Shown in pieces: positions 557 through 15,962 of a stretch of DNA of 64,000 bases. Within the stretch, counting starts at the first letter, position 1. Every line of letters starts with the position of its first letter. The stretch covers positions 1 to 64,000 of the forward strand of contig JAGFZX010000012.1 in the NCBI GenBank assembly GCA_017889585.1, in the 5' to 3' direction. The notes beneath the pieces are model-generated. The model was not told where the DNA came from, did no database searches, and saw only the letters and a list, made by a program, of their open reading frames with translations. Origin of the DNA: Bacillota bacterium (GTDB lineage Bacteria; Bacillota; Negativicutes; DSM-13327). A program made the position numbers and the translations under genes.

Positions 557-1258
557 TTAAGCTACATGATGCTGCCCTGTAACAGGCACAGACTCATCTG
601 TTTTTACTAGTATAATTTCATTTTCAACCCATACAGGATTGTGGTGCTTAGCCTCACTTAGCAATTGAGTTCCGTCACCAAACATACATAAAAATTCGCC
701 CCAATTATAGATTGCCATGAAGATATGTCCAAATACGCTTACTCCAAGGATGAGACCAACCGCTAAATGTATCATATCAAACCAATACATGACTAACTTG
801 GGGGCTACCGGCAGGAATGCATATAATGCCCAACCAGTAACAATCAGGAATATGCCGCCAAATAGCATCATAATCCCCATTTGCTTTTGACCTGGGTTCA
901 TTTTGCCTGTTGGCGGCACAGGAATAGTTTTACCTAGCAGCATCTTCTGCGGATAGCCTCCACCAATCTTCATCCAGGCTATATCCTGGGAATCCCAGGT
1001 AAGTATCCGGCGGATAAAGATGACAATTCTGTCCAAAGCAAAGATGGTATAACAAATACAGGATAACGTAAGAATGCACGCACCAACAATATGGATTTGC
1101 ATAATCACATTTTGCAGATCTTCACCAAAGGGTTTAAGCCAAATAAAAAATCCAGTAATAGCTGCTGGTAAAAAACCTAAAATTAACCCCCAGTGAAATA
1201 GCCGGGAAATAAGAGGGTGCTTGAGCACCCGCGGACTATGTTCTTCTTGATGCCTCAT
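557..1258 (-). CDS. Cytochrome b subunit of membrane-bound hydrogenase (FdnI/HydC-like)
   Basis: A protein of about 233 residues with four predicted membrane helices and histidines placed as in the di-haem cytochrome b gamma subunits of formate dehydrogenase-N and membrane hydrogenases (LFHW near the first helix, QIHIVGA, MIHLAVG, FGHIFMA). Its likely role is to pass electrons from the extracytoplasmic hydrogenase to menaquinone. It is the last gene of the operon, 12 bases after the hydrogenase small subunit. The ATG at 1258 is preferred because GGAGGG lies 7 bases upstream; a TTG directly before it would extend the protein by one residue. The partner assignment comes from gene order. Confidence 0.85.
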   Translation of the reverse strand: MRHQEEHSPRVLKHPLISRLFHWGLILGFLPAAITGFFIWLKPFGEDLQNVIMQIHIVGACILTLSCICYTIFALDRIVIFIRRILTWDSQDIAWMKIGGGYPQKMLLGKTIPVPPTGKMNPGQKQMGIMMLFGGIFLIVTGWALYAFLPVAPKLVMYWFDMIHLAVGLILGVSVFGHIFMAIYNWGEFLCMFGDGTQLLSEAKHHNPVWVENEIILVKTDESVPVTGQHHVA

Positions 1259-1270
1259 CAATTATCCCTC

Positions 1271-1582
1271 CTACACTAATTTTGTTCGGTCTACATACTT
1301 TGTATGAAACAGTTCTTCAGCCAAAGGACTGAGTGGGTTCCGGGCAAACTTTTTGTATACATCAGTAACTGCCTGATTATTATGACTCTGACGGATTTTT
1401 GATTTTACATCATCCTTATAGATGCCTTGCGCCCGCATCTTGATGTATTTTGTGCGGTCTTGTATTAAATCTGTAGCAAGATAGGCACCGGTCCACAAGA
1501 TTGCGCCGGCTACACCCACGATTCCTATAAATTCACGTCGCGAGACCTGCACGGCCTTTTCTACATAATCATACTGCGCCAT
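1271..1582 (-). CDS. hydB: [FeFe] hydrogenase small subunit with Tat signal
   Basis: A 103-residue protein. Residues 14-19 are SRREFI, a twin-arginine motif, followed by a hydrophobic stretch (IGIVGVAGAILWTGAYL) that is signal or anchor. The remainder (YIKMRAQGIYKDD to HTKYVD) matches the iron-hydrogenase small-subunit domain, which wraps the catalytic subunit in periplasmic HydAB enzymes. The start has a clear AGGGGGG upstream. It lies between the catalytic subunit and the cytochrome b gene. Because the large subunit has no signal of its own, the complex is probably exported folded, with this subunit carrying the Tat signal. Confidence 0.9.
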   Translation of the reverse strand: MAQYDYVEKAVQVSRREFIGIVGVAGAILWTGAYLATDLIQDRTKYIKMRAQGIYKDDVKSKIRQSHNNQAVTDVYKKFARNPLSPLAEELFHTKYVDRTKLV

Positions 1583-1594
1583 TGTGTTCCCCCC

Positions 1595-2854
1595 TTATGA
1601 CCAAGGCAGTACAGCCTTGACTTTATCCAGCCAGGAAGTACCCATTGGATTGATTGGCTGACCGCCGCCGTTAACACAGCCGCCCGGACAATTCATGATT
1701 TCGATAAAGTGATACGGCGATTCACCGGCTTTGACCTCTTCCAATAGTGGTTTTACGTTTTCTTTAATGCCATGAGCTACAGCTACTTTCAGCGTGACTT
1801 CTTTACCTGTTTTAGCATCTCTCATGGTAACACTGGCTTCCTTTACGCCTTTAAGGCCGCGAACAGGCTTGAATTCAAGCACATCCAGTTCTTTGCCGGT
1901 GATTACGAAATAGGCTGTCCGTAAGGCAGCTTCCATTACGCCGCCGGTATTGGCGAAAATAGTACCAGCACCACTGTATTGAACTAAGGGATTATCCTTG
2001 TCATCAAACTCGGCAACAGCCTTAACGTCAATATTTAGTTTCTTAAATAAACAGGCTAAATCCCGAGTAGTGAGTACTACATCCACATCAGAATAGTTCC
2101 CTGAACCGCCCTGTGTTCTCCAGTAATGGGCAGCACTAGAAAATTCAGGACGCGAAGCCTCGAATTTCTTGGCAGTACAAGGCATAACACCTACCATGAA
2201 TATATCTTCCGGTTTAACCTTCCAGACTTCTTTAGCGCCATAGGTTTTTCCCAATGCGCCAGCCATCATCATCGGTGACTTGGCTGAGGACATATTGGGT
2301 AAAAGTTCAGGATAGTACAGTTCTGCATACCGAACCCAGGCCGGACAACAGGAAGTAAACTGTGGCAAAGGTCCTAAATGATGTTCTGACGGCTCACCTA
2401 ACGCGAAGTGACGGATCCTGCCAATAAGCTCCATGCCTTCCTCCATAATGGTCTGGTCAGCAGTAAAGACTGTATCAAGTACCTTAAAACCGGCCTGTTT
2501 CATGGCTCCATAGAGTTTTTCTGTTACAAGACTGCCTGGTTCCATTCCAAACTCCTCGCCGATAGCAACCCGGACGGCTGGAGCAATGGTACCGACAACC
2601 GTGAGCTGTTTGTTTTTCAATTGTGCGATCACTTTGTCGACAACGTCAACCTTATCTTTTGGTGCTCCAAAGGGACAATTTATGATACATTGTCCACAAG
2701 AGATACATCTTTCGCTGTTGACCCTATGCACGGCCCCGTATTTGCCGTCGATAGCATCTGCCGGACAAAACGACTTGCAGGAATCGCAGCCTTTACAAGC
2801 TTTTCGATCAATTTCAATAACGCTGGTTAACTCCTGTCCTTGAAATCCTTTCAA
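1595..2854 (-). CDS. hydA: [FeFe] hydrogenase catalytic subunit
   Basis: About 419 residues. The N-terminus has two [4Fe-4S] ferredoxin motifs (CKGCDSCKSFCP and CISCGQCIINCP). The H-cluster domain follows with all three signatures: TSCCPAW, MPCTAKK and a C-terminal CPGGCVNGGGQP. This is the short, two-cluster layout of periplasmic HydA enzymes, with no N-terminal signal. The TTG at 2854 is chosen because GGAGG sits 7 bases upstream. The upstream ATG at 2908 has no such site and would overlap the end of moeA. Together with HydB and the cytochrome b it should form an outward-facing, quinone-linked hydrogenase; the uptake direction is inferred from context. Confidence 0.93.
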   Translation of the reverse strand: MKGFQGQELTSVIEIDRKACKGCDSCKSFCPADAIDGKYGAVHRVNSERCISCGQCIINCPFGAPKDKVDVVDKVIAQLKNKQLTVVGTIAPAVRVAIGEEFGMEPGSLVTEKLYGAMKQAGFKVLDTVFTADQTIMEEGMELIGRIRHFALGEPSEHHLGPLPQFTSCCPAWVRYAELYYPELLPNMSSAKSPMMMAGALGKTYGAKEVWKVKPEDIFMVGVMPCTAKKFEASRPEFSSAAHYWRTQGGSGNYSDVDVVLTTRDLACLFKKLNIDVKAVAEFDDKDNPLVQYSGAGTIFANTGGVMEAALRTAYFVITGKELDVLEFKPVRGLKGVKEASVTMRDAKTGKEVTLKVAVAHGIKENVKPLLEEVKAGESPYHFIEIMNCPGGCVNGGGQPINPMGTSWLDKVKAVLPWS

Positions 2855-2891
2855 ATTTAGACCTCCTCTACAAGATTTAATATTAGCACCC

Positions 2892-4130
2892 TCATATAAA
2901 GAGTTCACTACCGCTTCCTACCATAACTGCTGATACTTCTTGTCCGGCTAGTAATGGACCGCTCCCTGCAGGTACATCAATTAGAGCATTGCAGGCAACC
3001 ATGGATTTTAGGACTCCATTACTTTGGTCTCCTGTCAGCTCTACATAATTTATTCTGTTATTTTTTTGTAACTTCGCTCTTAAAAATCTTCGTTGTTCAC
3101 TGGGTTTATTAAAATTTTCTGCCAAAATTGCTGAAAATTTTACCGGTAATTCTTTGTCAATACCCATCATTCTTTTGATTAAAGGAACTACTATCAAATC
3201 AAAAGTTATAAATGCGGCGGCTGGATTTCCTGAAAGGCCAATAATTAATTTATTCTTGTATTTTGCAGTTATTATCGGCGATCCTGGTTTCATATCAATT
3301 TTCCAAAAAATGATATCTGCGCCGATTTTCTTAAGAGCGGTTGGTACAATATCGTAATCACCTACCGAAACACCCCCAGTAGTAATCACTAAATCTGCCA
3401 ACTCTATCCCTTGATTGATACGCTCAACGATTGCCGCCTCTTCATCAGGAACAATTCCCAGCGATACAGGCTCTGCACCTAATTGTGAGCAATAGGCACC
3501 TAGACAATGCAGATTGGAATTATATATCTTTCCTGACCTTAATTCTTCTGATGGATCGATCAATTCATCACCAGTGCTGAGGATAGCTATTTTGATTTTA
3601 CTAAACACCGACACTGCATCTACTCCAATCGCAGCTAACAGCCCTACAAGCGGTGGATTCAGCACCGCACCTTTTTTAGCAATTACCTCTCCCTGGCGTA
3701 CGTCTTCGCCGACCCGAATGATATTACTTCCTGTTCTGAGAGGATAATAGAGTTCGACCTTATTCTCCTCTCTTTTTACATCCTCAAATTTGATAATTAC
3801 ATCTGCGCCATTGGGTATAGGAGCCCCAGTCATAACCTTGATCGCTGTTCCAGAAGTTACTTGTTTTTTAGGCATATAGCCAGCCGGTACTTCTTCGATA
3901 ACTTCCAGTATTACAGGATTTGATGAATTAGCATCTTCAGTATCTTTCGCCTTTAGCGCATAGCCGTCCAAAGGTGATTTATCAAACAACGGTAGATTTA
4001 TATTTGTTCGTATATCTTGACTTACAATTCTGCCAACAGCGCTAGTCAACGGCACCTGGCATTCTTTAACCGATTGCACTAATTCCAGCAATAATGTCTG
4101 CGCTTCTTCTAGTGAAATATCTGTCTTCAT
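2892..4130 (-). CDS. moeA: Molybdopterin molybdenumtransferase MoeA
   Basis: About 412 residues spanning a full MoeA. Recognisable segments are DKSPLDGYA, the MTGAPIPNGAD motif, the MoaB/Mog-like domain with STGDEL and TTGGVSVGDYD, and the GLSGNPAAA segment, followed by the C-terminal domain. It inserts molybdate (or tungstate) into adenylated molybdopterin. Placement inside the operon means cofactor maturation is co-expressed with the molybdoenzyme at 10.3-13.0 kb. The ATG at 4130 is preferred because AGGAG lies about 7 bases upstream; ATGs at 4154 and 4148 are alternatives with weaker sites. Confidence 0.92.
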   Translation of the reverse strand: MKTDISLEEAQTLLLELVQSVKECQVPLTSAVGRIVSQDIRTNINLPLFDKSPLDGYALKAKDTEDANSSNPVILEVIEEVPAGYMPKKQVTSGTAIKVMTGAPIPNGADVIIKFEDVKREENKVELYYPLRTGSNIIRVGEDVRQGEVIAKKGAVLNPPLVGLLAAIGVDAVSVFSKIKIAILSTGDELIDPSEELRSGKIYNSNLHCLGAYCSQLGAEPVSLGIVPDEEAAIVERINQGIELADLVITTGGVSVGDYDIVPTALKKIGADIIFWKIDMKPGSPIITAKYKNKLIIGLSGNPAAAFITFDLIVVPLIKRMMGIDKELPVKFSAILAENFNKPSEQRRFLRAKLQKNNRINYVELTGDQSNGVLKSMVACNALIDVPAGSGPLLAGQEVSAVMVGSGSELFI

Positions 4131-4218
4131 TTTCATCTCCTGCTTCATTTTCACGCACCCGTACTAAAGAAATAGGCTGGGTACCGACAAAACTAATAGA
4201 TACAAAAAATATATAGGC

Positions 4219-4947
4219 TTATTTATGAAGGATATGTTTCACAATAACTATACTCATTTCATAGAGAACAAGTAATGGTATTGCTATCATCGCTTGGGAA
4301 AAAACATCCGGACTCGGGGCTACAATCGCGCCAATGACAAACGACAAAACAATCACTATTTTACGCTTAGATACCAAAAATCCAGAATCAATCATCCCCA
4401 ATTGTGTCGCCACAATAATAAACAAGGGTAGTTCAAAGATAAAACCAAATGGCAATAAAAAAGAAATTACTAAAGATATGTACTGACCGATAGAAATCAT
4501 AGGCTGAAGGCCTTCGGTAGCAAATCCCATAAAAAACTTAATACCAGCCGGCAATACCAGAAAGTAAGAAAAAACTAAGCCCGCAAAAAACATGACAAGG
4601 GACATTATTACTAACAAAAATGAGGCTGTGCGCCTGGTTTTGGCTAGGGCCGGCATAACAAATGCCCAGATATGATAAAATATAAGCGGCAAAGCCAGTA
4701 GACTACCGGCAAGTAACGATACCTTTAAATAAGCAAAAAATGCTTCTGCCGGGTTCATATAATACAATTTCCCTGCCGAGGCCGTAATGATACGCACTAG
4801 CTCTTCAGCAAACATATAACAGCCGGTACTTGTGCCAAGCACCGCCGCTATACAAATGATCAACCGCCGCCTCAACTCCTGCAAGTGGTCGAATAGAGAC
4901 ATATTGCCCTCTTTTGCGCCATCGAATTCCAAATATTGGTTATCCAT
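4219..4947 (-). CDS. tatC: Sec-independent translocase TatC
   Basis: A 242-residue protein with six predicted membrane helices. It carries the TatC N-terminal signature (SLFDHLQELRRRL), a conserved Pro-rich turn around FYHIWAFVMPAL, and FELPLFI in the fourth helix region. It is the Tat receptor subunit. It follows tatA by 9 bases. The start at 4947 has a poor ribosome binding site; an internal ATG at 4902 directly before SLFDHLQE has GAGGG upstream and may be the real start. Encoding TatC beside three substrates (the Mo enzyme, the NapG-like protein and HydB) suggests a dedicated export pair. Confidence 0.92.
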   Translation of the reverse strand: MDNQYLEFDGAKEGNMSLFDHLQELRRRLIICIAAVLGTSTGCYMFAEELVRIITASAGKLYYMNPAEAFFAYLKVSLLAGSLLALPLIFYHIWAFVMPALAKTRRTASFLLVIMSLVMFFAGLVFSYFLVLPAGIKFFMGFATEGLQPMISIGQYISLVISFLLPFGFIFELPLFIIVATQLGMIDSGFLVSKRKIVIVLSFVIGAIVAPSPDVFSQAMIAIPLLVLYEMSIVIVKHILHK

Positions 4948-4956
4948 GTTTTCTCA

Positions 4957-5163
4957 CTATTTTGTTTCTCCCGGCTTGTTTTCCGCTGGCTTACCCTCAA
5001 TCTTTATAACGTCTTGATTCGACGACTCACCCGATACGGACCGCCTGAACTCACCAATCCCTTTGCCTAATGCCTTACCTACCTCAGGCAACTTACCAGG
5101 CCCGAATACAATGAGGGCAATGACTAGTATTATACCTAATTCTGGCATACTGAAATTGAGCAT
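4957..5163 (-). CDS. tatA: Twin-arginine translocase pore subunit TatA
   Basis: A 68-residue protein with one N-terminal membrane helix (PELGIILVIALIVFG), the hinge FGPGKLPEVGKALG and an amphipathic helix ending in a charged tail, which is standard TatA/TatE. AAAGGGG lies upstream of the ATG. It precedes tatC, and no separate tatB is seen, as in many Firmicutes. Confidence 0.93.
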   Translation of the reverse strand: MLNFSMPELGIILVIALIVFGPGKLPEVGKALGKGIGEFRRSVSGESSNQDVIKIEGKPAENKPGETK

Positions 5164-5263: not shown

Positions 5264-6430
5264 TCAGTTCTTAACCGCGCAACCCAATAAGCGGGCCATA
5301 CGCCGTTCTACGGGGTCCAACAAGTTAGCAACTTCTTCTTGTCTTTTTATGAAGAGTACTCGCGAATTCTGGGTAAGCAATGCATCAAGAGCGACAGTTG
5401 AGGTAATTTCGATACTTTCACAGTAACATATGTCTTTGCATAAACCACACTGCGTGCAACGCGACACATCCAAAGAGATGCTCCAAACACCATCCTGCTG
5501 GTGAATAACAATAGCCGAAGTCGGACAGGCCTCAGCACAGGCTCCACAGCCATTACAGCTGTCGGCAATTCTAATCTCCCCCCAGAGACTGCTTTGAAAG
5601 CCCATAGGAGTCGCCGGGTTCTGGAGTTGCTTTAGGGAGTTAACCAACGAGCACCACTTCTCCGGCAAGTACTTGGGCTCCGCCATTGGATTCTGCTTTT
5701 CGTTACTATTTTCTACCTGCTTGTCAGCAGTACTGAAGATGATTTCCGGAAGCACTTGTGTAACGAGGCTCTGACTTTTTCTCTTAAAAGCGGTGAGAAA
5801 AGATCGGCGAGACATACCAATCGCTTTGCCTTCCGTAATAGGCAAAGGTTTGATTTTCTCCGGAATCTTTTGGGTAAGCGTAATCACGGCAGGATACTTC
5901 CAGCATTCTAATAACCGGTTTGCAGTGTCAACCATTGTCTCGACCTGACCACAAAGCTTATTCTGCAGGCAGCCTGCACAGCAGGTATTGAGGATGGACA
6001 CGTTGGCTGCGCCTCGAAGAACCGACTCAACAAGAATGGATTCATCGCACCGAGCGGTACACTGCACAGCGATGACACGATGACGCTCAGTAGGATGAGC
6101 TTTGAGATAGGCTTCACAAGCAAAGGCAACTGCTCCCGAATGTTCCACATGGAGTGCAGCAAGAGAGCGTAGCTCTTTGTTAGAAGGCAGCTTGGCTGAG
6201 AGCGCACCGCTGGGGCAGACCGAAGTGCAGGCACCGCATCCGGTGCACTTTTCAGCCATTAAGACAAGATCCTCCGAGCAAGTGATAGCACCACTGGGAC
6301 ACACCGAAGAACAGAGCAAGCAGGAACTATGAAGATGTCGCTTGCGTAGACACCGCTTCTCGTGCATGACGATACCCCGCTTATCAAGCTTGGCACAGGC
6401 TTCCATAAATAGTTCAAGTTTAGACAACAT
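5264..6430 (-). CDS. Multi-cluster ferredoxin protein of the respiratory operon
   Basis: A 388-residue protein with four ferredoxin-type Cys motifs, two near the N-terminus (CLLCSSVCPSGA, CTGCGACTSVCP) and two near the C-terminus (CNGCGACAEACP, CTQCGLCKDICYC). Between them is a Cys-rich stretch (CTARCDES, NTCCAGCLQNKLCG) that could bind more metal. An internal SRRSFLTAFKRK near residue 205 resembles a twin-arginine motif but is not N-terminal. It probably relays electrons between the Nap-like membrane proteins and another partner. A GGAGGTGA site lies just before the ATG, inside the end of the napH-like gene. I do not recognise a named family for the full-length architecture. Confidence 0.75.
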   Translation of the reverse strand: MLSKLELFMEACAKLDKRGIVMHEKRCLRKRHLHSSCLLCSSVCPSGAITCSEDLVLMAEKCTGCGACTSVCPSGALSAKLPSNKELRSLAALHVEHSGAVAFACEAYLKAHPTERHRVIAVQCTARCDESILVESVLRGAANVSILNTCCAGCLQNKLCGQVETMVDTANRLLECWKYPAVITLTQKIPEKIKPLPITEGKAIGMSRRSFLTAFKRKSQSLVTQVLPEIIFSTADKQVENSNEKQNPMAEPKYLPEKWCSLVNSLKQLQNPATPMGFQSSLWGEIRIADSCNGCGACAEACPTSAIVIHQQDGVWSISLDVSRCTQCGLCKDICYCESIEITSTVALDALLTQNSRVLFIKRQEEVANLLDPVERRMARLLGCAVKN

Positions 6431-6439
6431 TTAAGTCAT

Positions 6440-7288
6440 TCACCTCCAGGGGAACCGAATCGCATGGACTGGACAGTTATCCGCACATTCTCTACACTTG
6501 GTGCAGGAACTGATGTCACCTGTTCCACTGCTATTTTTAAGATCCACACCAAAACTGCAGGCACTGCGGCATTGCTGGCACTTGGTATCACAGTTTTCTT
6601 CCAGACAGAGAGAACGGTCTACAGTAGGCACAAGACTACGGTTGAACCTGCTAAAGATACTGAGAAGAGCTCCGACGGGGCATAATTTGCTACACCACTT
6701 TTTAAAGAATATAAGTTCAACAATGATCACAACGGGAAAAACAATAAGATCAAGCGTCGGCTCATTAAAATTTAGAAGGCGGATCAGTGCAAACAAAGTC
6801 GCGAGGACTAGTCCAATCGGACAAATGAGACAGAATACGGGAAATCCACAAACAGCAGAGGATCCTAGGGTTACGCCGAGAATAAGCAGTCCTGAAGAGG
6901 AACTCTTTGCGGTTTCTCCATCCTCCAGAACCGGCACCGCCGCCCCCTCATTGGGGGCACTATTTGTAAAAGCCTTCTGGCCTTCATCGACTTCGTTGAT
7001 TAATAATTTTCGCACTAGAGGTATGGGACAGATCCAGCCGCAGAAGACCCGCCCCAACAGCACGGTCAGTCCAGCAATTACGAGAAAAGAAAGTAGCATA
7101 TACGGCATGATATCCCGACTGGCAAGCGCCGTTTCCAGGTAGCCCAAGGGACAAATCGCAGAGATATTCTCTACGCCGAAGGCAGAAAGAGACCCTATTC
7201 CAACATTCCTGAGCGCACCAATAATGACACCGCTGGCTACGACCGCCATCGTTGTCAATCGCAGCGCCCTTGTTCTATTCCTGTTCAT
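6440..7288 (-). CDS. NapH-like membrane polyferredoxin
   Basis: A 282-residue protein with about four membrane helices. It has the paired CxxxCP motifs of NapH/CcoG proteins (FCGWICPIPLV and KLCPVGALLSIFSR) and two C-terminal [4Fe-4S] ferredoxin motifs (CDTKCQQCRSACSFGV, CTKCRECADNCP). NapH proteins take electrons from menaquinol and pass them to NapG. Its ATG overlaps the stop of the napG-like gene by four bases, indicating translational coupling. An insertion of roughly 25 residues with several Glu and Ser (near residue 105) lies between helices and is not typical of NapH. No Nap nitrate reductase is present, so the acceptor is likely the Mo enzyme of this operon. Confidence 0.82.
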   Translation of the reverse strand: MNRNRTRALRLTTMAVVASGVIIGALRNVGIGSLSAFGVENISAICPLGYLETALASRDIMPYMLLSFLVIAGLTVLLGRVFCGWICPIPLVRKLLINEVDEGQKAFTNSAPNEGAAVPVLEDGETAKSSSSGLLILGVTLGSSAVCGFPVFCLICPIGLVLATLFALIRLLNFNEPTLDLIVFPVVIIVELIFFKKWCSKLCPVGALLSIFSRFNRSLVPTVDRSLCLEENCDTKCQQCRSACSFGVDLKNSSGTGDISSCTKCRECADNCPVHAIRFPWR

Positions 7289-7929
7289 ACACTTCCTTCA
7301 CCTCTCCTGGAAATAGGTGTGACTACGATACCGCGGATGTTGCCGCCAGCGTATGACCTCATCACCAGCGAAGGACAGACTTTCTCGCAAATGCCGCATC
7401 CGTTGCACTTATGGGAATCCACCACGGGACGACTCTGTCCGTCAAGCGTGATCGCGTGATAGGGGCACGCGGTCATGCACACCATACACCCCCCTGAGTC
7501 CCACGCAATGCAGGTTTCCTTCTTCACTGTCGCAAGTCCAATTTTCACAGTCTTGATGTCAAAAGGTTTCAAGGCCTGGGTGGGGCAAACCTCAACACAT
7601 TTATTACAAAAATTGCAGTACCCGAGATGAAACTTCATCACCGGCGTACGTGCATCCAAGATACTATCCGACAAGTGCGCCAGACCGATCACGGAAGTGG
7701 GGCAGACACTTCTGCAGCGGTCACATCTAAGACATCGTGAGATGAAGGATGTATCGTCCTGTCCTCCAGGGGGACGAAGGAGAGCCTCGCGTGGGAGGAT
7801 CTTTCCAACGCCTCCGAGCCCCATAAGAAGGCCAAAAGCTCCTCCGGTGATTTTCAGAAAAGTGCGCCGCGAGGGACTTGCCAGACTGATTACTTTGCTC
7901 TGTACTTTCTCAGGTTTATGTTGGCTCAT
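7285..7929 (-). CDS. NapG-like Tat-exported ferredoxin
   Basis: About 214 residues. The N-terminus has SPSRRTFLKITGG, a twin-arginine signal, followed by a hydrophobic segment. Four [4Fe-4S] cluster motifs follow (CLRCDRCRSVCP, CNFCNKCVEVCP, a CMVCMTACP group and CNGCGICEKVCP), the NapG/MauM layout. It should act outside the membrane as partner of the NapH-like protein. The ATG at 7929 is favoured because GAGAGG lies about 10 bases upstream; the open frame extends to 7989 without a better site. Confidence 0.83.
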   Translation of the reverse strand: MSQHKPEKVQSKVISLASPSRRTFLKITGGAFGLLMGLGGVGKILPREALLRPPGGQDDTSFISRCLRCDRCRSVCPTSVIGLAHLSDSILDARTPVMKFHLGYCNFCNKCVEVCPTQALKPFDIKTVKIGLATVKKETCIAWDSGGCMVCMTACPYHAITLDGQSRPVVDSHKCNGCGICEKVCPSLVMRSYAGGNIRGIVVTPISRRGEGSV

Positions 7930-8013
7930 TCCTTGCATTCCTCTCTTGTTGCGAAATTGACAACTTACGAGTCGCATACAGATCAGCAAAAGCCAATGCC
8001 TTGGTTACGAAGG

Positions 8014-8706
8014 TCAGCATTTACACGCGACCTCCACGCCAGTTTCGGCACTCATATCTTCGAGAATGCTGCGCTCCAAGCGCAAGTAGCCATTAGTGAC
8101 TTTCGCAACAGCTTTGTAGAATTCTGTCCCAGCGAACTTCTCGATGTCGGCACAAAACGCAGGAACCCAATTAAGCAGATGTTGCTCAAGAAATTCCATC
8201 TGCTCCTTAAGACAGACCGAGACCGCTGGCCAGTCCTGCGTAACAAAAGCCTGTTGCGTCTCGTGGCACAGGTGTGCCATGAATTCAAGTTCGAGGGCTA
8301 TATGATCTTCTGGAAGCTCTAGAGTTTCCGCCTTGTTCAGGCCTTTTGCGCGGTATGCAGCCACTACTTGATCTCGAGCATCTTGCATGATCAGCCGCTT
8401 CGAACTCGTGTAAACTGACTCATACGGATAGGCAGCATCGTCTCCAACAATCCCCGCACCAAGGAATACCCTCGCATAGTCCACAGCCAAATCGGTCAAT
8501 GGATCGCTCCCAAGATTTCGAAGATACTCTTCAAGCATCCGGTATCCTTCGGCAAGTTCGTCGTCTCCGCACTCTGTGGGAAAACACATGCCTTCCATAT
8601 GGTCCAGCAGTGTTTGATCTATTTCAACTTTGTAGAAGCGCCCCAGAAACTGGTACAGATTCTCCCGGTTTGAGATAAGCGCTAAGTACTCTGATATTTT
8701 CTCCAC
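8014..8706 (-). CDS. TorD/DmsD-family molybdoenzyme chaperone
   Basis: A 230-residue, largely helical protein with the TorD-family core: DYARVFLGAG near residue 79, then AAYPYESVYTSSKRL, and a later PEDHIALELEFMAHL. Such proteins bind the Tat signal and apoprotein of a specific molybdoenzyme and hold back export until cofactor is loaded. Its position between the anchor gene and the napG-like gene fits a dedicated chaperone for the Mo enzyme at 10.3-13.0 kb. Confidence 0.85.
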   Translation of the reverse strand: MEKISEYLALISNRENLYQFLGRFYKVEIDQTLLDHMEGMCFPTECGDDELAEGYRMLEEYLRNLGSDPLTDLAVDYARVFLGAGIVGDDAAYPYESVYTSSKRLIMQDARDQVVAAYRAKGLNKAETLELPEDHIALELEFMAHLCHETQQAFVTQDWPAVSVCLKEQMEFLEQHLLNWVPAFCADIEKFAGTEFYKAVAKVTNGYLRLERSILEDMSAETGVEVACKC

Positions 8707-8775: not shown

Positions 8776-9684
8776 TTAAAAAAATTGCTTAATACTACTT
8801 CCGATCAAGAACATCAATGCTCGAAATGCAACGCCTGCTACCAGGACGGATGCCAAACTGAGTTTAACCGACGTAAGTGGCGAGATACTCTCAGTATTTT
8901 TCGTATAGAACTTTGTCATCAATACTGTGGGGACCAGGAAACCAAGCAGCACCACTCCGCCCCAGAAAAGCAGCGCCAGATTGCCAGTCAAGACCCGCAT
9001 GACTGATCGAGTTATATCTGGATAAGGAGCAACGGCTACGTGGATCAGGTACGCAATGAGCAGCACTGCTTGGAATGCGAGTGCAATCAGCGTCGCACGC
9101 TTTATCGTTGTCGTTGCAGTTGTCGTCGAAGTTTCCGCTGTCGCTGCCGTTTCCGTTACGGCTATTGTTGCAATTGTGTCGGCGTATTTAGTGCGTGCAA
9201 GCAATACGCTGAGGCTGAAACAGCCCATAACACCTGCCGAAGCCACATAAAGTAGCGGCAGAATTAGTGTGTTCCAGGCAGGCCGGGCAGCGATCACATA
9301 AGCGTGCCCGTTCACAAAGGCAAGCACGACCGCCAGTACCGCACCTATCGTTGCTATAACCTTGCAAGTGCGGTCGGAAGCGTTTCTCCGCAGTGCAAGC
9401 AGATAAACGATAATGGCTAGACCGAACAGGCCTATCATCGTGGACTCCATGAAGATTCCGGAGGTTGGATGCCCCAACGCACCAAACATGCGCTCTGGAT
9501 GCCCTAAGTGCATAGTGCTTGAGACGCCACCGACGCCTAAGGCCACAATTGCGATACTCGAACTTATTGTTCTAATCTGCTTTGCCTTACCACACCATTC
9601 GGTCAGAACAACAGAGCCGACAAATATTCCGCACCCCAGTCCAACAAATAGTGTAAAGAAAACCAATGGCCATTGAATACTCAT
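8776..9684 (-). CDS. DmsC/NrfD-like membrane anchor subunit
   Basis: About 302 residues with eight predicted membrane helices, resembling the DmsC anchor of DMSO reductase-type enzymes (MSIQWPLVFFTLFVGLGCG at the N-terminus, MHLGHPERM and LGHPTSGIF between helices). It would exchange electrons between menaquinone and the Fe-S subunit. The ATG at 9684 has GGAGTAA upstream and starts 4 bases after the Fe-S gene; an extension to 9786 would overlap that gene. A low-complexity Thr/Ala-rich loop (residues around 170-185, built of repeated Thr and Ala codons) sits between two helices and is unusual. Confidence 0.83.
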   Translation of the reverse strand: MSIQWPLVFFTLFVGLGCGIFVGSVVLTEWCGKAKQIRTISSSIAIVALGVGGVSSTMHLGHPERMFGALGHPTSGIFMESTMIGLFGLAIIVYLLALRRNASDRTCKVIATIGAVLAVVLAFVNGHAYVIAARPAWNTLILPLLYVASAGVMGCFSLSVLLARTKYADTIATIAVTETAATAETSTTTATTTIKRATLIALAFQAVLLIAYLIHVAVAPYPDITRSVMRVLTGNLALLFWGGVVLLGFLVPTVLMTKFYTKNTESISPLTSVKLSLASVLVAGVAFRALMFLIGSSIKQFF

Positions 9685-9688
9685 ATTA

Positions 9689-10264
9689 TTACTCCTTCCA
9701 TGTAGCAATCTTACTGTGCAGGATGTACCGAGCGGAAGGTTGATTTCCCACATCAGGTAGAACATGGACGCTGTCACTGCCAGCATTTTTGATGACTCTT
9801 GCTACTTCACTGTTTGGATCATCGATATCGCCGACAAACCGACATCCGGCCGGACATTTCTCGACACAAGCTGGCTGCTTGCCAGCGGCCTGCAAGTGAG
9901 CACATAGTGTGCACTTTTCCACTACCTTCGTCTCTTCGTTAAAGGTACGAACTCCATAAGGGCAGGCGAACATGCAATACTGACAGCCGATACACTTTTC
10001 CTTATCGACGAGGACAACTCCATCCTTACTCTTATAGGACGCTCCTGTCGGACAGGCCTTGACACATGGCGCGTCCTTACATTCCTGGCACATCGTCGGC
10101 AGATAATACATTTCTAATTTCGGATACGTGCCTGTCGGTCCTACCGTCAGCACTTTATTCCACGTACATCCGAGAGCCACTCCATTCTCATGTTTACACG
10201 CTACTTCACATGATTTACAGCCAATGCAGCGATCTAAATCTACTACCATAGTTCTTTGTGACAT
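9689..10264 (-). CDS. DmsB-like four-cluster Fe-S subunit
   Basis: A 191-residue protein with four [4Fe-4S] motifs in the DmsB/PsrB/NrfC order: CIGCKSCEVACKHEN, CQECKDAPCVKACP, CIGCQYCMFACPYG and CTLCAH with a distal CVEKCPAGC. It passes electrons between the membrane anchor and the catalytic subunit. It has no signal sequence and would be exported bound to the Tat-tagged catalytic subunit. It starts 2 bases after the catalytic gene. Confidence 0.9.
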   Translation of the reverse strand: MSQRTMVVDLDRCIGCKSCEVACKHENGVALGCTWNKVLTVGPTGTYPKLEMYYLPTMCQECKDAPCVKACPTGASYKSKDGVVLVDKEKCIGCQYCMFACPYGVRTFNEETKVVEKCTLCAHLQAAGKQPACVEKCPAGCRFVGDIDDPNSEVARVIKNAGSDSVHVLPDVGNQPSARYILHSKIATWKE

Positions 10265-10266
10265 AA

Positions 10267-12960
10267 TTACACCTCCTTATCTTTCAAAGGAGTAGGATCG
10301 GACGGCTCAGGAAGCCATGCCTTGAACTCCTCAGGTTTCTGCCAAACCCCTTTAGGCGGGCCATCGGCTTTCGATATCTTGACGAGATAGCCCCTCAGCG
10401 TGTAGGTACCTATAACATCATTGAATGGAGCATCATTCTTGGAAAGTACGTTAACGTTCACTTCTTTCCAGCCATGAGTATCGGTGTTCAATGTTTCCGG
10501 TGTCCAAAACCGTTCCATGTAAACGACTCCTGGATTGATTCCTTCCATCACCCAGGCCTTTGCCTTAATTTTGCCTCGCAGCGACTCGATATTCACCCAG
10601 TCTCCCTGGGACACGCCATATTTAGCTGCAGCCTTCGGGTGAATCCAGATTTCAGGTACAGGGTAAATTTCCCTCAGCCAAGGAATGTTTCGCAATGTCC
10701 CGTGGTGGTAGTACGGAAGCCTGCCGTTGGTCATGACCAGCGGAAACTCCTTGGCAAGTTCACTGCCTTCTAGCGGACTTTCGTGAGGTTCTACGAAATA
10801 AGGCAGCGGATCATAGTCTTTTGATGCCGGCGGTAATGGATGAGGAGTATAAGGAGCCCCGGTCCGTGCCAGCGTGATGAATGCTTCACCATAAATCTCG
10901 ACTTTTTTGCTTGGCCGGCCAAAACCTTTAGGCTTCCCGGTCTTCGGATCGATCTCCTTGTATGTGTAATACTTACGCCATTTGTCGATAGGCATGGCTT
11001 CGTAAGGCACTTTTTTCGCCAGTTCCTTAAAAGTCATTCCAAGCTTCAGCTTGCAATTATAGTCAAGAAATTCCTCCATTGAGTTCCAATAAGGCTGCTC
11101 TGGCGCCGTCTTTACTGGGTCAAATGAGTCTTTGCAGGCCTGATGCCCTAGTTCTCCGCACCGTTTGGCAATTTTAGCCCAGATTACCGTTTCATTCATG
11201 GTCTCATAGGTATGCGTAACAGCTTGCCGCACAAAAAGCATGTTAAGCGGCGGAACAACATAATCCGACTCCAGCCATTCCGTAGTCGGCAGCAATACGT
11301 CGGCATATGCCGAGAACGATGTAGGATACATATACATGTGAACGATGAATTCCAGTTTTTCTAAGGCTTCAATCCATGACGATGCGTTACCAAGCATAGC
11401 AAGCTTATTACCGGAGCGTTCAAGCCACGCACGAATCGGATAAGGTTTCCCTGTCTTGATAGCCTCAAGAACAGTTGGATTATGGCAAGATCCCCATGAA
11501 TTTGCTCCTTTGTACTCGGCACCGCCCAGACGTTTTTTAAATTGTTCAGGCGATATTAATTTGTACAGCGGCGAAACCGCAGAGTCAGCAAATTTGACAT
11601 CACCAAAGTTTTGAAGGAGTGCTCCTGGTTTTTGCACATACCCCATCATTAAGTCGAGGGCACAGGCTGCCATAGCTGCCTGGGCCGATTGAGGATGCTG
11701 GTCTGTTGCAACACCGAGACAGAGACCACCAGGGCCTTGGGCATAGATTTTTATTGCTTTTTCGATCATGTCCGCGTCGAGCCAGCAGATTTCTGCTGCT
11801 TTCGCGAGAGTAAAAGGCTCACACCGCTCCTTATAAAGCTGAAACCCTGTCTTACATTCGACACCGTTTACCGTAAAATTCCCAAACAGTTCGGGATCAA
11901 GATTGTCATCCCATGGATAGGCAAGCGGCTTAGCTGATTGCGTCTTCTTGTCCCACACCACATAGGTTTGGGAATCACCACCAGGTATGATATCGCTTTC
12001 TCGGAGACACATTTTTGTCTGCGTGTTTACGAGGAATGGGAGATTTGACCACTTCATTACAAATTCTTCGTCATAGAGCTTATGTTCTATAATGTATCGA
12101 ATCCAGCAGAGCTCAAGGGCCACATCTGTGCCCGGTCTAATCGGCAGCCAAACATCTGCCTTCGCAGCATCTGCGGTAAAACGAGGATCGACCACAACAG
12201 TCTGCACGCCTCGCGCCCTGAGCTCCACGACGGCCCGTCCGCCCTGAGATGGACTGTTATACGCGGGAGCCGTCCCCCACAACACCAACGTCTTCATTGG
12301 TGTGTCTTCGTAGAAGTAAATTTCCTGGCCTTCGCTGTCAGCAATACTGGTGGTCTGATATTTCATATCTGTATTCCCATAAATCATGTTATAGCAGACT
12401 GTCCTTGGCATATAGCATTGCTGAGCACCTGGTTCGAACCAGTTTGGCGTACCGAACACACTGGCGAACCTTCTAATACTGCCAAATTCTGGATTCCCGC
12501 CACCGCCGGTAGTACAGAGAACCTGCTCTGCTCCATGCTTTTCGCGAATTTCCATAAGTTTCTTTGCGATTGTATCAATCGCCTCTTCCCATGAGACACG
12601 TTTCCATTTGTTCTCACCACGCGCACCAACACGAACCATAGGGTACTTGTTACGGTTAGGATTATAAAGAGCCTGTATGGCGGCAATCCCTTTAGCACAC
12701 ACCTTGCCTCTGGTCATTGGCTGATCGGGATCGCCTTCCAGCTTAATCAATCGGCCGTCTTTCACATGCGCCAAAATGCCACACTTGCCGATACAACCTC
12801 TGCAACACGTCCTGATGATTTTTGTCTCTGCTATTTTTGCGGTCTCCTCTGCAGCTTCACCTCGCGTGAGACCTTTCAACGAACCGCTGAACGCTGCCGC
12901 AATCCCGGTTACAGCAGTCGCTTTGAGAAACTGTCTTCTGTTTAGTACTGGTTGTTTCAT
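10267..12960 (-). CDS. Tat-exported molybdopterin oxidoreductase (DMSO reductase family), substrate unknown
   Basis: An 897-residue catalytic subunit. Residues 7-13 are NRRQFLK followed by a hydrophobic stretch, a Tat signal. One [4Fe-4S] cluster is bound by C53-x2-C56-x3-C60-x27-C88. The molybdopterin domains follow, with a candidate metal ligand Cys at 182 in GAQQCYMPR, and a C-terminal dinucleotide-binding domain (MTNGRLPYYHHGTLRN near residue 745). It is long like PsrA, PhsA and related sulfur or arsenic reductases, but the active-site sequence does not let me choose a substrate. It is the first gene of the operon, about 200 bases behind a sigma-54 promoter, with GAGGAGAG before the ATG. 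Confidence 0.88.
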   Translation of the reverse strand: MKQPVLNRRQFLKATAVTGIAAAFSGSLKGLTRGEAAEETAKIAETKIIRTCCRGCIGKCGILAHVKDGRLIKLEGDPDQPMTRGKVCAKGIAAIQALYNPNRNKYPMVRVGARGENKWKRVSWEEAIDTIAKKLMEIREKHGAEQVLCTTGGGGNPEFGSIRRFASVFGTPNWFEPGAQQCYMPRTVCYNMIYGNTDMKYQTTSIADSEGQEIYFYEDTPMKTLVLWGTAPAYNSPSQGGRAVVELRARGVQTVVVDPRFTADAAKADVWLPIRPGTDVALELCWIRYIIEHKLYDEEFVMKWSNLPFLVNTQTKMCLRESDIIPGGDSQTYVVWDKKTQSAKPLAYPWDDNLDPELFGNFTVNGVECKTGFQLYKERCEPFTLAKAAEICWLDADMIEKAIKIYAQGPGGLCLGVATDQHPQSAQAAMAACALDLMMGYVQKPGALLQNFGDVKFADSAVSPLYKLISPEQFKKRLGGAEYKGANSWGSCHNPTVLEAIKTGKPYPIRAWLERSGNKLAMLGNASSWIEALEKLEFIVHMYMYPTSFSAYADVLLPTTEWLESDYVVPPLNMLFVRQAVTHTYETMNETVIWAKIAKRCGELGHQACKDSFDPVKTAPEQPYWNSMEEFLDYNCKLKLGMTFKELAKKVPYEAMPIDKWRKYYTYKEIDPKTGKPKGFGRPSKKVEIYGEAFITLARTGAPYTPHPLPPASKDYDPLPYFVEPHESPLEGSELAKEFPLVMTNGRLPYYHHGTLRNIPWLREIYPVPEIWIHPKAAAKYGVSQGDWVNIESLRGKIKAKAWVMEGINPGVVYMERFWTPETLNTDTHGWKEVNVNVLSKNDAPFNDVIGTYTLRGYLVKISKADGPPKGVWQKPEEFKAWLPEPSDPTPLKDKEV

Positions 12961-13167: not shown

Positions 13168-13186
13168 ATGCAAAAAGTATGCCAAA
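13168..13186 (-). promoter_or_regulatory. Sigma-54 (-24/-12) promoter of the respiratory operon
   Basis: Read on the minus strand the sequence is TTGGCATACTTTTTGCAT, which keeps the invariant GG and GC with the required TGGCA-N6-TTGC spacing. It lies about 210 bases upstream of the Mo enzyme gene, so a leader of roughly 200 nt is predicted. An inverted repeat AAAGATTA/TAATCTTT (13190-13197 with 13211-13218) lies just upstream. The divergent gene at 13875 encodes a sigma-54 activator, the expected partner. Confidence 0.75.
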
Positions 13187-13874: not shown

Positions 13875-15962
13875 ATGTACTCTCATCTCTCGAGACATTC
13901 CGAATTAAATACTCAATCATTTTGCAACGACAGCGCTATTATTGCCATGGAAAAATGGGAACATATCCAGGAATGTAAAAAGCGATTCCTAGAGTATGGC
14001 GAAAATCCGCTAACCTCGCCTTACATGCGTCGTGATGTAGCCGAATCATGGCTTCGTTCCCATAAATACGGCGTTAATCCCTATTCCGCTAAACTAGGAA
14101 ACAATGTGAGTGCTTCCCAGTTACAGACTATTCTCCGCGAAAACCAATTATTGATTGAAACTACCACGCCCCTGTTTAAAGCCTTTATCGATCTGGCTGT
14201 ACACTCCGGCTACACACTGACACTTAGGGATCATCAGGGCATTTTGATGTTGCAAGAAGGTAATTCAGAGCAAATAACTACCTTTAATAAAATCAATTCG
14301 GTAATTGGAGCAAACTGGCCTGAAGAAATCGCTGGAACCAATGCACATATCCTATGTATGCGCCTCAAACGACCCATTCAGTTGTTGGGACCAGAAAATT
14401 ATGCTCTGGTACTGCAAGACAATCTCCTCTCTGCTGCTCCCATTTTTAATGCCAATAATCAACTTATTGGCACGTTGATACTAGCCCATGATTTGGTAGA
14501 GTATTCTAATAAATCCAATCTAAATAAGCTCCAGGCCCATTCACTGGGCTGGGTAACCTCAATGGCATTAGCCATTGAGCAGCAAATGAGCTTGAAACAA
14601 GCCAATCATCGCCTGACCGTTGCCAAGAATACATTAGAGGCTACCATTAGTTTTATCGACGAAGGCATCATCATGGTTGATTCGATGGGGAAGATCATCC
14701 AGAGCAACCATGAAGGGTTGCACATGCTGCAAATTAGCTTGGAGGAAACCGAAAATTATAGTATATTTGAGCGTCTAAACCCTGATTCTATGATTATTCA
14801 AGCCGTGAAAAGCGGGACTACTCTTAACTATATGGAAGAAACCATGGTAATTAATCAAAACGAACAAACTTACATCATAAGTACACGTCCGGTATTTTTA
14901 CATACTGATACCGAAGTGGCCGGTGCGGTCCTACGCCTGAGCCATGTAGATAAAATTAATGCCTTGGTAGCTCGCCGTACAGGTAATAGTGCAACCTTTT
15001 GTTTTGCTGATATCATCGGTAATGATGAGGCCACTCGCAAGACCAAATTGATGTGTCAGCGATTTTCCACCTCGCCGGAAAATATTTTATTAATGGGCGA
15101 AAGCGGTACTGGTAAAGAGCTTTTTGCTCAGTCTATTCATAACTTTTCCCGTCCCAATGGCCCCTTTATTGCCATAAACTGTGCCGCCATGCCCCGCAAT
15201 CTGATTGAAAGCGAGCTTTTTGGTTATGAAGGAGGTAGTTTTACCGGTTCTGAGCGCGGCGGACGGCCTGGCAAGATTGAATTAGCCAGTGGCGGCACTC
15301 TTTTTCTGGATGAAATAGGCGATATGCCTTTTGAAATACAAGCCGTGCTGCTAAGGGTTCTGGAAGATAAGAAAGTTATGCGCGTAGGTGGCAAACGCTA
15401 TCAGCCGGTTGATTTCCGACTAGTAGCTGCCACCAATAAAGATCTCTATAAAATGGTAGAGGAAAAAACTTTCCGCGAAGACTTGTATTTTCGATTGTCA
15501 GTTTTGAAATTGCAAATCCCGCCACTTCGCGAACGTAGTAATGATATCTTAGTGTTGGCCAGGCACTTTATTCAAAACTACTGTCGACGTGTCAAACTGC
15601 CCATCCCGCAAATTTCCGATTTAGTGTTTAAAATTGTCAGTAAATATAGTTGGCCAGGTAATGTACGTCAACTGGAAAATGCCATGATCTATGCCGTGAA
15701 TATGGCCCAAGGTAACTATATCTATCCTGAACACTTACCGGAAGAAATACTGCGCAACAAAATTACAACCCCCACACAGGTAAGCTTTCCCCCTGCCGAT
15801 ATCAGCATTAAGAACATGATGTCTTTACGAGATGCGGAGATACTGTTTATTCGCTCGGCCCTGTCCCGTGTTAATAACAACGTAGTGCAAGCCGCTGATT
15901 TTCTCAATATAAGCAAGTCCACCCTGTACCGTAAGATAAAAGAATATGGAATTGAGACATAA
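13875..15962 (+). CDS. Sigma-54-dependent enhancer-binding regulator (GAF-PAS-AAA+-Fis)
   Basis: 695 residues. An AcoR/DhaR-like N-terminus with a GAF-type sensor (about 50-235) is followed by a PAS segment (about 250-360), the AAA+ domain with Walker A GESGTGKE (408-415) and Walker B GGTLFLDEIGD (473-483), and a Fis-type helix-turn-helix at the end (VVQAADFLNISKSTLYRKI). The sigma-54 contact loop reads GSFTGS at 454-459 instead of the common GAFTGA. GGAGG lies 9 bases before the ATG. It is divergent from the respiratory operon, whose promoter is of the sigma-54 type, so it is the probable activator. The signal sensed is unknown. Confidence 0.92.
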   Translation: MYSHLSRHSELNTQSFCNDSAIIAMEKWEHIQECKKRFLEYGENPLTSPYMRRDVAESWLRSHKYGVNPYSAKLGNNVSASQLQTILRENQLLIETTTPLFKAFIDLAVHSGYTLTLRDHQGILMLQEGNSEQITTFNKINSVIGANWPEEIAGTNAHILCMRLKRPIQLLGPENYALVLQDNLLSAAPIFNANNQLIGTLILAHDLVEYSNKSNLNKLQAHSLGWVTSMALAIEQQMSLKQANHRLTVAKNTLEATISFIDEGIIMVDSMGKIIQSNHEGLHMLQISLEETENYSIFERLNPDSMIIQAVKSGTTLNYMEETMVINQNEQTYIISTRPVFLHTDTEVAGAVLRLSHVDKINALVARRTGNSATFCFADIIGNDEATRKTKLMCQRFSTSPENILLMGESGTGKELFAQSIHNFSRPNGPFIAINCAAMPRNLIESELFGYEGGSFTGSERGGRPGKIELASGGTLFLDEIGDMPFEIQAVLLRVLEDKKVMRVGGKRYQPVDFRLVAATNKDLYKMVEEKTFREDLYFRLSVLKLQIPPLRERSNDILVLARHFIQNYCRRVKLPIPQISDLVFKIVSKYSWPGNVRQLENAMIYAVNMAQGNYIYPEHLPEEILRNKITTPTQVSFPPADISIKNMMSLRDAEILFIRSALSRVNNNVVQAADFLNISKSTLYRKIKEYGIET

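Follow-up and report, generated by a model that had tools for sequence, protein, structure and literature searches.

Which reaction is catalysed by the molybdoenzyme encoded by mopB, a gene carried by a 64,000-nucleotide stretch of DNA (the window) of a Bacillota bacterium of the Negativicutes (contig JAGFZX010000012.1, assembly GCA_017889585.1)? An original prediction, made from the sequence alone, had noted a twin-arginine translocation (Tat) signal, a C-x2-C-x3-C-x27-C cluster and a GAQQCYMPR loop around Cys182, a candidate ligand, in a protein that it could not match to a named reductase. From neighbouring NapGH-like and hydrogenase genes, it had argued for a terminal reductase or a novel oxidoreductase. 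The present analysis leads to the view that MopB is very probably a terminal reductase, different from the characterised enzymes against which it was tested. In the best reading, it would be a reductase of plant phenolics that receives its electrons from quinol or NAD(P)H, and it may be a dehydroxylase. Statements taken from papers cited by PMC number hold for those portions of the papers that were available.

Family and relatives of MopB

The mopB gene is real and constrained, to judge from the 92-94% identity of its product to proteins of four other genomes. It belongs to the dimethyl sulfoxide (DMSO) reductase, or MopB, superfamily: Molybdopterin (PF00384, 105.7 bits for a cut-off of 24), Molydop_binding (PF01568, 77.0 bits for 26.8) and Molybdop_Fe4S4 (PF04879, 52.7 bits for 22.7) domains all score above their Pfam cut-offs. 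The Tat signal is recognised by Pfam, and the four cluster cysteines are found as originally described (Table 1). Cluster and ligand cysteines are near-invariant in a 13-sequence alignment, and the ligand loop of the family follows the motif W[FY]EPG[CA][AQ]QC[YF][LM]PR, apart from occasional differences in its first two positions. In acetylene hydratase (PDB 2e7z), the residue aligned with Cys182 is the metal-binding Cys, Cys141 as numbered in the literature; in the polysulfide/thiosulfate reductase 2vpw, it is the corresponding Cys. By alignment, Cys182 is thus a sound candidate for the metal ligand, in agreement with the original prediction. An AF2 model of MopB, built from the 13-row alignment, had a mean pLDDT (predicted local distance difference test) of 45, too low to be used.

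MopB is matched by 27 NCBIfam models and, among the 25 matches listed, none reaches its cut-off. The best scores are those of PhsA (283 bits for a cut-off of 694), DmsA-YnfE (TIGR02166, 248 for 778), type II DMSO reductase (228 for 985) and formate dehydrogenase alpha (TIGR01591, 221 for 666). NapA (TIGR01706) gives 125 bits for a cut-off of 931. The identities of arsenate reductase (ArrA, NF041714, 125 for 1600) and tetrathionate reductase (TtrA, NF011567, 103 for 1750) are ruled out by their cut-offs. In a FastTree phylogeny of 40 sequences, the family is set apart by a long branch, with a support of 1.000, from the outgroups, namely acetylene hydratase, PsrA, Escherichia coli DmsA, other MopB proteins of the window genome and a group 30-35% identical to MopB. 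Clustering with a characterised subfamily, which would have spoken against the original prediction, was not found with acetylene hydratase, PsrA or DmsA; the catechol dehydroxylases were compared by description only, no Coriobacteriia sequence being in the tree. The absence of a named match therefore stands, and MopB is best explained as a molybdenum (or tungsten) bis(molybdopterin guanine dinucleotide) enzyme of a deep-branching, unnamed family of the superfamily.

The 30-35% group (L097, L100, L102; L098; L099, L101; L and G numbers designate loci and genomes) had been considered as distant members of the family and falls outside it in the tree. At two of these loci (L099:5484-11759 and L101:129-6342), MopB proteins of about 30% identity are encoded in the order NapG-NapH-MopB-B-NrfD-TorD and have another ligand loop, GFGVGNVCKIAN. 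A stand-alone MopB of 724 amino acids (aa) in CTSoil_080, devoid of a Tat signal (L040; L104:7982-10156), shares the motif WFEPGTAQCFFPR (WFEPGxAQCFFPR). It lies outside the family clade, of which it is the nearest outside relative by motif.

The contig search for relatives returned 12 loci. Relatives with 92-94% identity occur in Sporomusa silvacetica DSM 10669, in Sporomusa sp. KB1 and in the metagenome-assembled genomes (MAGs) CTSoil_079 (L014) and CTSoil_080 (L016, 93%). One Deferribacteraceae MAG and one Clostridiales MAG have relatives of 61%, Sutterella one of 58%, and four ruminant Lachnospiraceae MAGs and one uncultured Clostridia relatives of 55-58%. In the family of the rumen genome G109, 250 genomes include 7 carriers; in that of the Sutterella genome, 67 include 16, with up to three copies each; and in the Sporomusa family, 12 include 5 (four at 67% identity at least, one at 35%). 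In the phylum of the window, the window genome itself is the single carrier among 299. At a threshold of 1e-80, 100 related genomes gave five matches (the window genome, one of 93% and three of 32-35%), and nine further genomes belonging to the same family or genus as the window gave none. Viral contigs contained no relative, whether searched with the window protein or with the alignment, and plasmids gave matches of 28-30% only, in five records. Such a patchy spread suggests horizontal transfer. The habitats of the relatives are soil, rumen, termite or other gut, and biogas. A description of this family or of its setting was not found in the available portions of the literature searched.

Electron input

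The window operon combines an exported catalytic subunit with an iron-sulfur subunit (B), a membrane anchor (C) and a TorD-type chaperone (Table 1), which is the architecture of complex iron-sulfur molybdoenzymes. Among 43 loci of relatives, MopB is followed by the B gene in 42, and the contig ends in the remaining one. In all nine Sporomusaceae copies (window, L013-L016, L066-L069), MopB is followed by B, C, TorD, NapG, NapH and the polyferredoxin, and the contig of L017 encodes B, TorD, a DmsC-like protein and NapG before it breaks off. The clostridial loci are organised differently. All ten in which the downstream sequence reaches 3 kb or more (L018, L020-L022, L070-L075) have B, AsrA and AsrB, TorD being present in nine and C, NapG and NapH in none; L023 and L024 end too early to be scored. 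The AsrA model gives 386 bits in L022 and 368 in L018 (cut-off 323), and the AsrB model gives 337 bits in L018, over its cut-off of 289, and 268, just under it, in L022. The pair thus resembles AsrAB but differs from it in following MopB and a ferredoxin gene. AsrB carries an NAD-binding domain and the clostridial MopB proteins of the alignment have no Tat signal. This gene content suggests that clostridial MopB would be fed inside the cell by NAD(P)H via AsrAB.

Electron input is therefore modular, as judged from gene order: NrfD/DmsC and NapGH with a Tat signal, or AsrA and AsrB without it. Because two unlike donors, quinol outside and NAD(P)H inside, would feed one catalytic subunit, MopB is taken to be a reductase, into which electrons would flow. 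The conserved operon and the replacement by AsrA and AsrB in clostridia lend support to the terminal reductase that the original prediction had proposed from the NapGH-like and hydrogenase context.

In 15 of 22 Sutterella-family loci (several, not all, of the other seven being on short contigs), NapH comes with a GltD-like flavoprotein part. In L019:6269-8758 and 14 more of these loci, the NapH-like protein is beside, or fused to, a flavoprotein resembling the glutamate synthase small subunit (830 aa in L019). It is possible that this arrangement provides NAD(P)H entry into the reductase operon. Near the AsrAB-type operons, genes resembling 2-oxoacid:ferredoxin oxidoreductases are seen in L018:14889-17275 (by Pfam) and L021:10021-12209 (by eye), and an FmdE-family protein (L020:2885-3412) adjoins the LysR gene of a rumen operon.

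Plant phenolics and other candidate substrates

A first indication on the substrate comes from PF18089, a family of the DAPG/phloretin-hydrolase type which we take to be the Pfam family of phloretin hydrolase. In the Lachnospiraceae, all 11 MopB carriers have it, and of 69 non-carriers four do (Fisher p = 1.3e-10). Ten carriers match at E < 1e-57 and G265 at 4.5e-7; one of the four positive non-carriers is under the cut-off, and the non-carriers are 69 of 243 non-matching genomes, in listing order. If the carriers are restricted to the six that were sampled evenly across the family, the count is 6 of 6 (p = 1.0e-6). In L022, the PF18089 gene is about 4 kb from MopB and, together with a vinylphenol-reductase/flavocytochrome-type flavoprotein (under cut-offs), falls 2.5-5 kb from it; such proximity is seen in just this one of the 11 carriers. 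Phloretin hydrolase frees 3,4-dihydroxyphenyl acids (PMC12203004) and would therefore supply substrates for a dehydroxylase.

The soil relatives point in the same direction. The 93% relative L016 is located in CTSoil_080, which has four PF18089 matches; CTSoil_80 is said to encode phloretin hydrolase. CTSoil_80-82 are Sporomusales MAGs; together with Holophaga, they dominated the metaproteome at late stages in an anoxic soil fed with condensed tannin, CTSoil_81 most of all, and for the microbially active microcosms dehydroxylation to 3-hydroxy phenolics was reported as a distinctly biotic change (PMC8084988). Several MopB copies, up to three, 57-69% identical to the query, may occur in one genome, and LysR-type genes are found in 10 of the loci examined. 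Catechol dehydroxylases are reported to follow a pattern of one regulator per enzyme (PMC11887054), and the multiple copies and LysR genes look like a similar specialisation on several related organic compounds.

By its plan, the MopB complex would work most like PsrABC and the Eggerthella-type catechol dehydroxylases. The latter enzymes of Coriobacteriia (Dadh, Hcdh, Cadh) are reported to have a Tat-exported alpha subunit with an iron-sulfur motif, a beta ferredoxin and a membrane anchor (PMC7028382, PMC11574389), and this subunit plan is also that of the window operon. They are closest to acetylene hydratase and comprise many paralogues with their own regulators, some being respiratory (PMC7028382, PMC11887054, PMC11574389, PMC11585353). 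The likeness drawn here is one of plan, and MopB differs by NrfD/DmsC, TorD and NapGH, or AsrAB, and by its occurrence in other phyla.

Several observations weigh against plant phenolics and a catechol-type reaction. In the Lachnospiraceae, shared ancestry may account for part of the association with PF18089. Of 10 carrier genomes, eight lack PF18089 (the window genome, G100, G101, G102, G104, G105, G106 and G429), four of these eight being genomes of the Sporomusa family. It is also missing in each of the 16 carriers of the Sutterella type (two of 51 non-carriers being positive); therefore, the flavonoid link is not family-wide. If these carriers use phenols, the substrate would be simple phenols produced by other organisms. 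Across the loci, MopB is accompanied by no conserved transporter or phenol gene. In the available text of PMC8084988, no dehydroxylase is assigned to the soil dehydroxylation, and the link to the tannin metaproteome is drawn at the level of the MAGs. Furthermore, five catechol dehydroxylases were used as queries against more than 150,000 human-associated MAGs, and the 2,903 sequences retrieved came from Coriobacteriia MAGs (PMC11585353). Because Sutterella is a gut genus whose sequences are not among them, its MopB likely falls, on this indirect ground, under the 30% cut of that study, and is presumably less than about 30% identical to catechol dehydroxylases. Finally, the hydrogenase is physically linked to MopB in the window only. 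HydA relatives of 87-90% in G100, G102 and G429 are on other contigs or far from MopB, and one of 71% occurs in CTSoil_080, whose MopB contig stops after TatC. The window genome is a MAG (G000) that is 84% complete with 5.4% contamination, so that the lack of a gene carries little weight and the contig may have been misbinned.

Four other substrates or reactions may be envisaged. The same type of complex might reduce another organic acceptor, such as an organic N- or S-compound, a nitro compound, a hydroxylated steroid or an unsaturated acid; this is unlikely, but deserves serious consideration. Habitats and several copies with separate regulators would fit substrate-specialised organic reductases, and a corticoid dehydroxylase has been reported in the superfamily (PMC11574389). 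In the second S. silvacetica copy, a 68% paralogue (L066:9500-14078, G100:C106), an OYE-type FMN/FAD reductase and an MFS transporter adjoin MopB, as would also suit such an enzyme. However, no common neighbour indicates one such substrate, and the Cys ligand is unlike the Ser of S- and N-oxide reductases (PMC10100899), an identity that it rules out. The same paralogue is flanked by a URO-D family protein, which may act in methyl transfer from methoxylated aromatics.

A respiratory reductase of sulfur or metalloid oxyanions (polysulfide, thiosulfate, selenate or arsenate type), as a divergent Psr/Phs-like complex, is improbable without being far-fetched. PhsA is the top NCBIfam match and, in the PDB, PsrA (2vpw, from Thermus) ranks second, scoring 242 bits against the family profile. 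PsrABC shares the MopB, iron-sulfur and NrfD plan, the PR after the Cys, separated from it by two residues, is common to PsrA, and Cys-ligated enzymes also handle such substrates (PMC10100899). However, the PsrA match is mostly within the first 300 residues, the PhsA, ArrA and TtrA cut-offs are missed, the family is separate in the tree, and TorD and NapGH are extra to PsrABC. Moreover, co-occurrence with PF18089 in the Lachnospiraceae and multiple copies would be unexpected for one inorganic acceptor.

A formate dehydrogenase feeding the hydrogenase or the quinone pool is very improbable, even though a cytochrome b of the formate dehydrogenase gamma type and a hydrogenase are in the operon and the alpha model gives a match, short of its cut-off. 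Formate dehydrogenases have a His after the ligand residue, as in the C-H of 9vap in the alignment, whereas Tyr or Phe follows the ligand Cys here. In addition, four other genes of the window genome score higher with PF00384; two of these (C107 and C101) are read through a TGA and are probably selenocysteine formate dehydrogenases. An acetylene hydratase or other non-redox hydratase is hardly credible: 2e7z, from Pelobacter acetylenicus, is the top PDB match (204.5 bits singly, 252 with the family profile, over most of the chain) and shares the Cys ligand and the [4Fe-4S] motif, but Asp13, specific to the acetylene hydratase subfamily and required for activity (PMC12096430), is replaced by Ile57 (Ile, Thr or Val in the family), Trp179 falls near Pro237 in the family-profile alignment, and a NrfD, NapGH or AsrAB donor, as in this multi-subunit redox complex, would be superfluous.

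On balance, an organic, plant-derived substrate of MopB is reasonably probable. Dehydroxylation of phenols, the more specific proposal, is possible and falls somewhat short of probable.

Operon, regulation and proposed electron chain

The features of the operon are collected in Table 1. The sequence AGAGGAGAG sits upstream of the mopB ATG. The sigma-54 pattern TGGCA-N6-TTGCW has its sole exact match in the 64 kb at the mopB box; 0.5 match was expected, so that alone it is not significant. Of nine Sporomusaceae copies, eight (window, L013-L016, L066-L068; not L069) carry the box, at 113-291 bp upstream of MopB, the background being 14 exact matches in 748,070 bases over all loci examined. Because of this recurrence, sigma-54 control of the operon in Sporomusaceae is likely. 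Further boxes occur in L017, at -597, and in L015, where a second one lies at -473. Relatives of the divergent sigma-54 activator adjoin six other Sporomusaceae MopB copies. A sigma-70 scan of the promoter region gave 7 matches versus 4.3 expected and was not used.

Table 1. Features of the mopB region, in window coordinates
Feature	Position	Strand	Basis
Sigma-54 activator, PAS + AAA+ + Fis-type helix-turn-helix, divergent	13875..15962	+	PF00158, 213.5 bits
Sigma-54 promoter box TGGCATACTTTTTGCA	13169..13184	-	224 bp upstream of mopB ATG
MopB catalytic subunit, Tat signal, [4Fe-4S] motif, Cys182	10267..12960	-	open reading frame (ORF) of 897 aa, ATG start, Pfam, alignment
Tat signal, residues 6-24, NRRQFLK	12889..12945	-	TAT_signal PF10518, 24.4 bits (cut-off 22.7)
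[4Fe-4S] cysteines C53-x2-C56-x3-C60-x27-C88	12697..12804	-	sequence, alignment, tree set
Proposed Mo ligand loop GAQQC182YMPR (G178 to R186)	12403..12429	-	sequence, alignment
B subunit, multi-cluster ferredoxin-type electron-transfer protein	9689..10264	-	Fer4_11, 91 bits
C subunit, NrfD/DmsC-type membrane anchor	8776..9684	-	PF03916, 58 bits; PF04976, 57 bits; ORF listed to 9786, start at MSIQ deduced from direct succession to B
TorD-type maturation chaperone	8014..8706	-	PF02613, 125 bits
NapG-like ferredoxin	7285..7989	-	NapG model, 96 bits (under cut-off 269)
NapH-like membrane ferredoxin	6440..7288	-	Fer4_5, 52 bits; NapH model, 60 bits (under cut-off 234)
Polyferredoxin, 388 aa, conserved in operon	5264..6430	-	Pfam, loci of relatives
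TatA	4957..5163	-	TIGR01411, 62 bits (cut-off 54)
TatC	4219..4947	-	TIGR00945, 197 bits (cut-off 133)
MoeA, molybdenum insertion	2892..4154	-	PF03453, PF00994, PF03454
[FeFe] hydrogenase group A catalytic subunit	1595..2908	-	TIGR02512, 438 bits (cut-off 406)
Probable hydrogenase small subunit, Tat-like motif SRREFIG	1271..1582	-	sequence and position only
Cytochrome b, formate dehydrogenase gamma type	557..1261	-	TIGR01583, 69 bits (under cut-off 116)

Small gaps and the overlap of the hydrogenase ORF with moeA make it possible that positions 12960 to 557 are a single transcript. Since hydrogenase and cytochrome b are on the mopB strand, with this overlap, H2 may be the electron donor. In the chain that we propose, H2 would be oxidised by the [FeFe] hydrogenase and the electrons would pass via cytochrome b to menaquinone. 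The exported, membrane-anchored MopB-B-NrfD complex, with NapGH, would draw them from menaquinol by way of NrfD and/or NapH-NapG and pass them on via B and then the [4Fe-4S] cluster to the Cys-ligated Mo(IV), which would reduce the substrate. With a catechol, one ring hydroxyl would be lost as water, as with the Eggerthella enzymes. The operon's own Tat exporter and MoeA would serve export of MopB and Mo insertion, and the sigma-54 activator would switch expression, presumably by sensing the substrate. Taken as a whole, a terminal reductase of an unnamed family, fed by menaquinol, linked to H2, acting on plant phenolics by catechol-type dehydroxylation and switched by sigma-54, is a plausible picture that we put forward tentatively.

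Catechin degradation has been proposed as an H2 sink lowering methane, and transcripts annotated as catechol dehydroxylase and as H2-uptake hydrogenases were reported, with no physical link between both seen in the available text (PMC12203004). One operon containing a hydrogenase would make plant phenols a direct hydrogen sink and, if this is true, the window operon would be the molecular form of the proposed polyphenol sink competing with methanogens. With reductase and hydrogenase in one inducible operon, the proposal would become testable gene by gene, in soil and, with the AsrAB-linked relatives, in the rumen. It is tempting to go further and to imagine a separate family of molybdenum phenol dehydroxylases in wetland and soil Sporomusaceae and in rumen and gut bacteria, with the window as a single-operon respiratory chain from H2 to polyphenol and with rumen Lachnospiraceae running the same subunit from NAD(P)H via AsrAB; in this extended form, the proposal is doubtful, if conceivable. 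The superfamily has many members without an assigned substrate, to which the new clade adds, and the family constitutes a defined target, of which Sutterella-type genomes have up to three copies. Anaerobes of soil, rumen and gut thus appear to use MopB to dump electrons, the acceptor being probably plant phenols.

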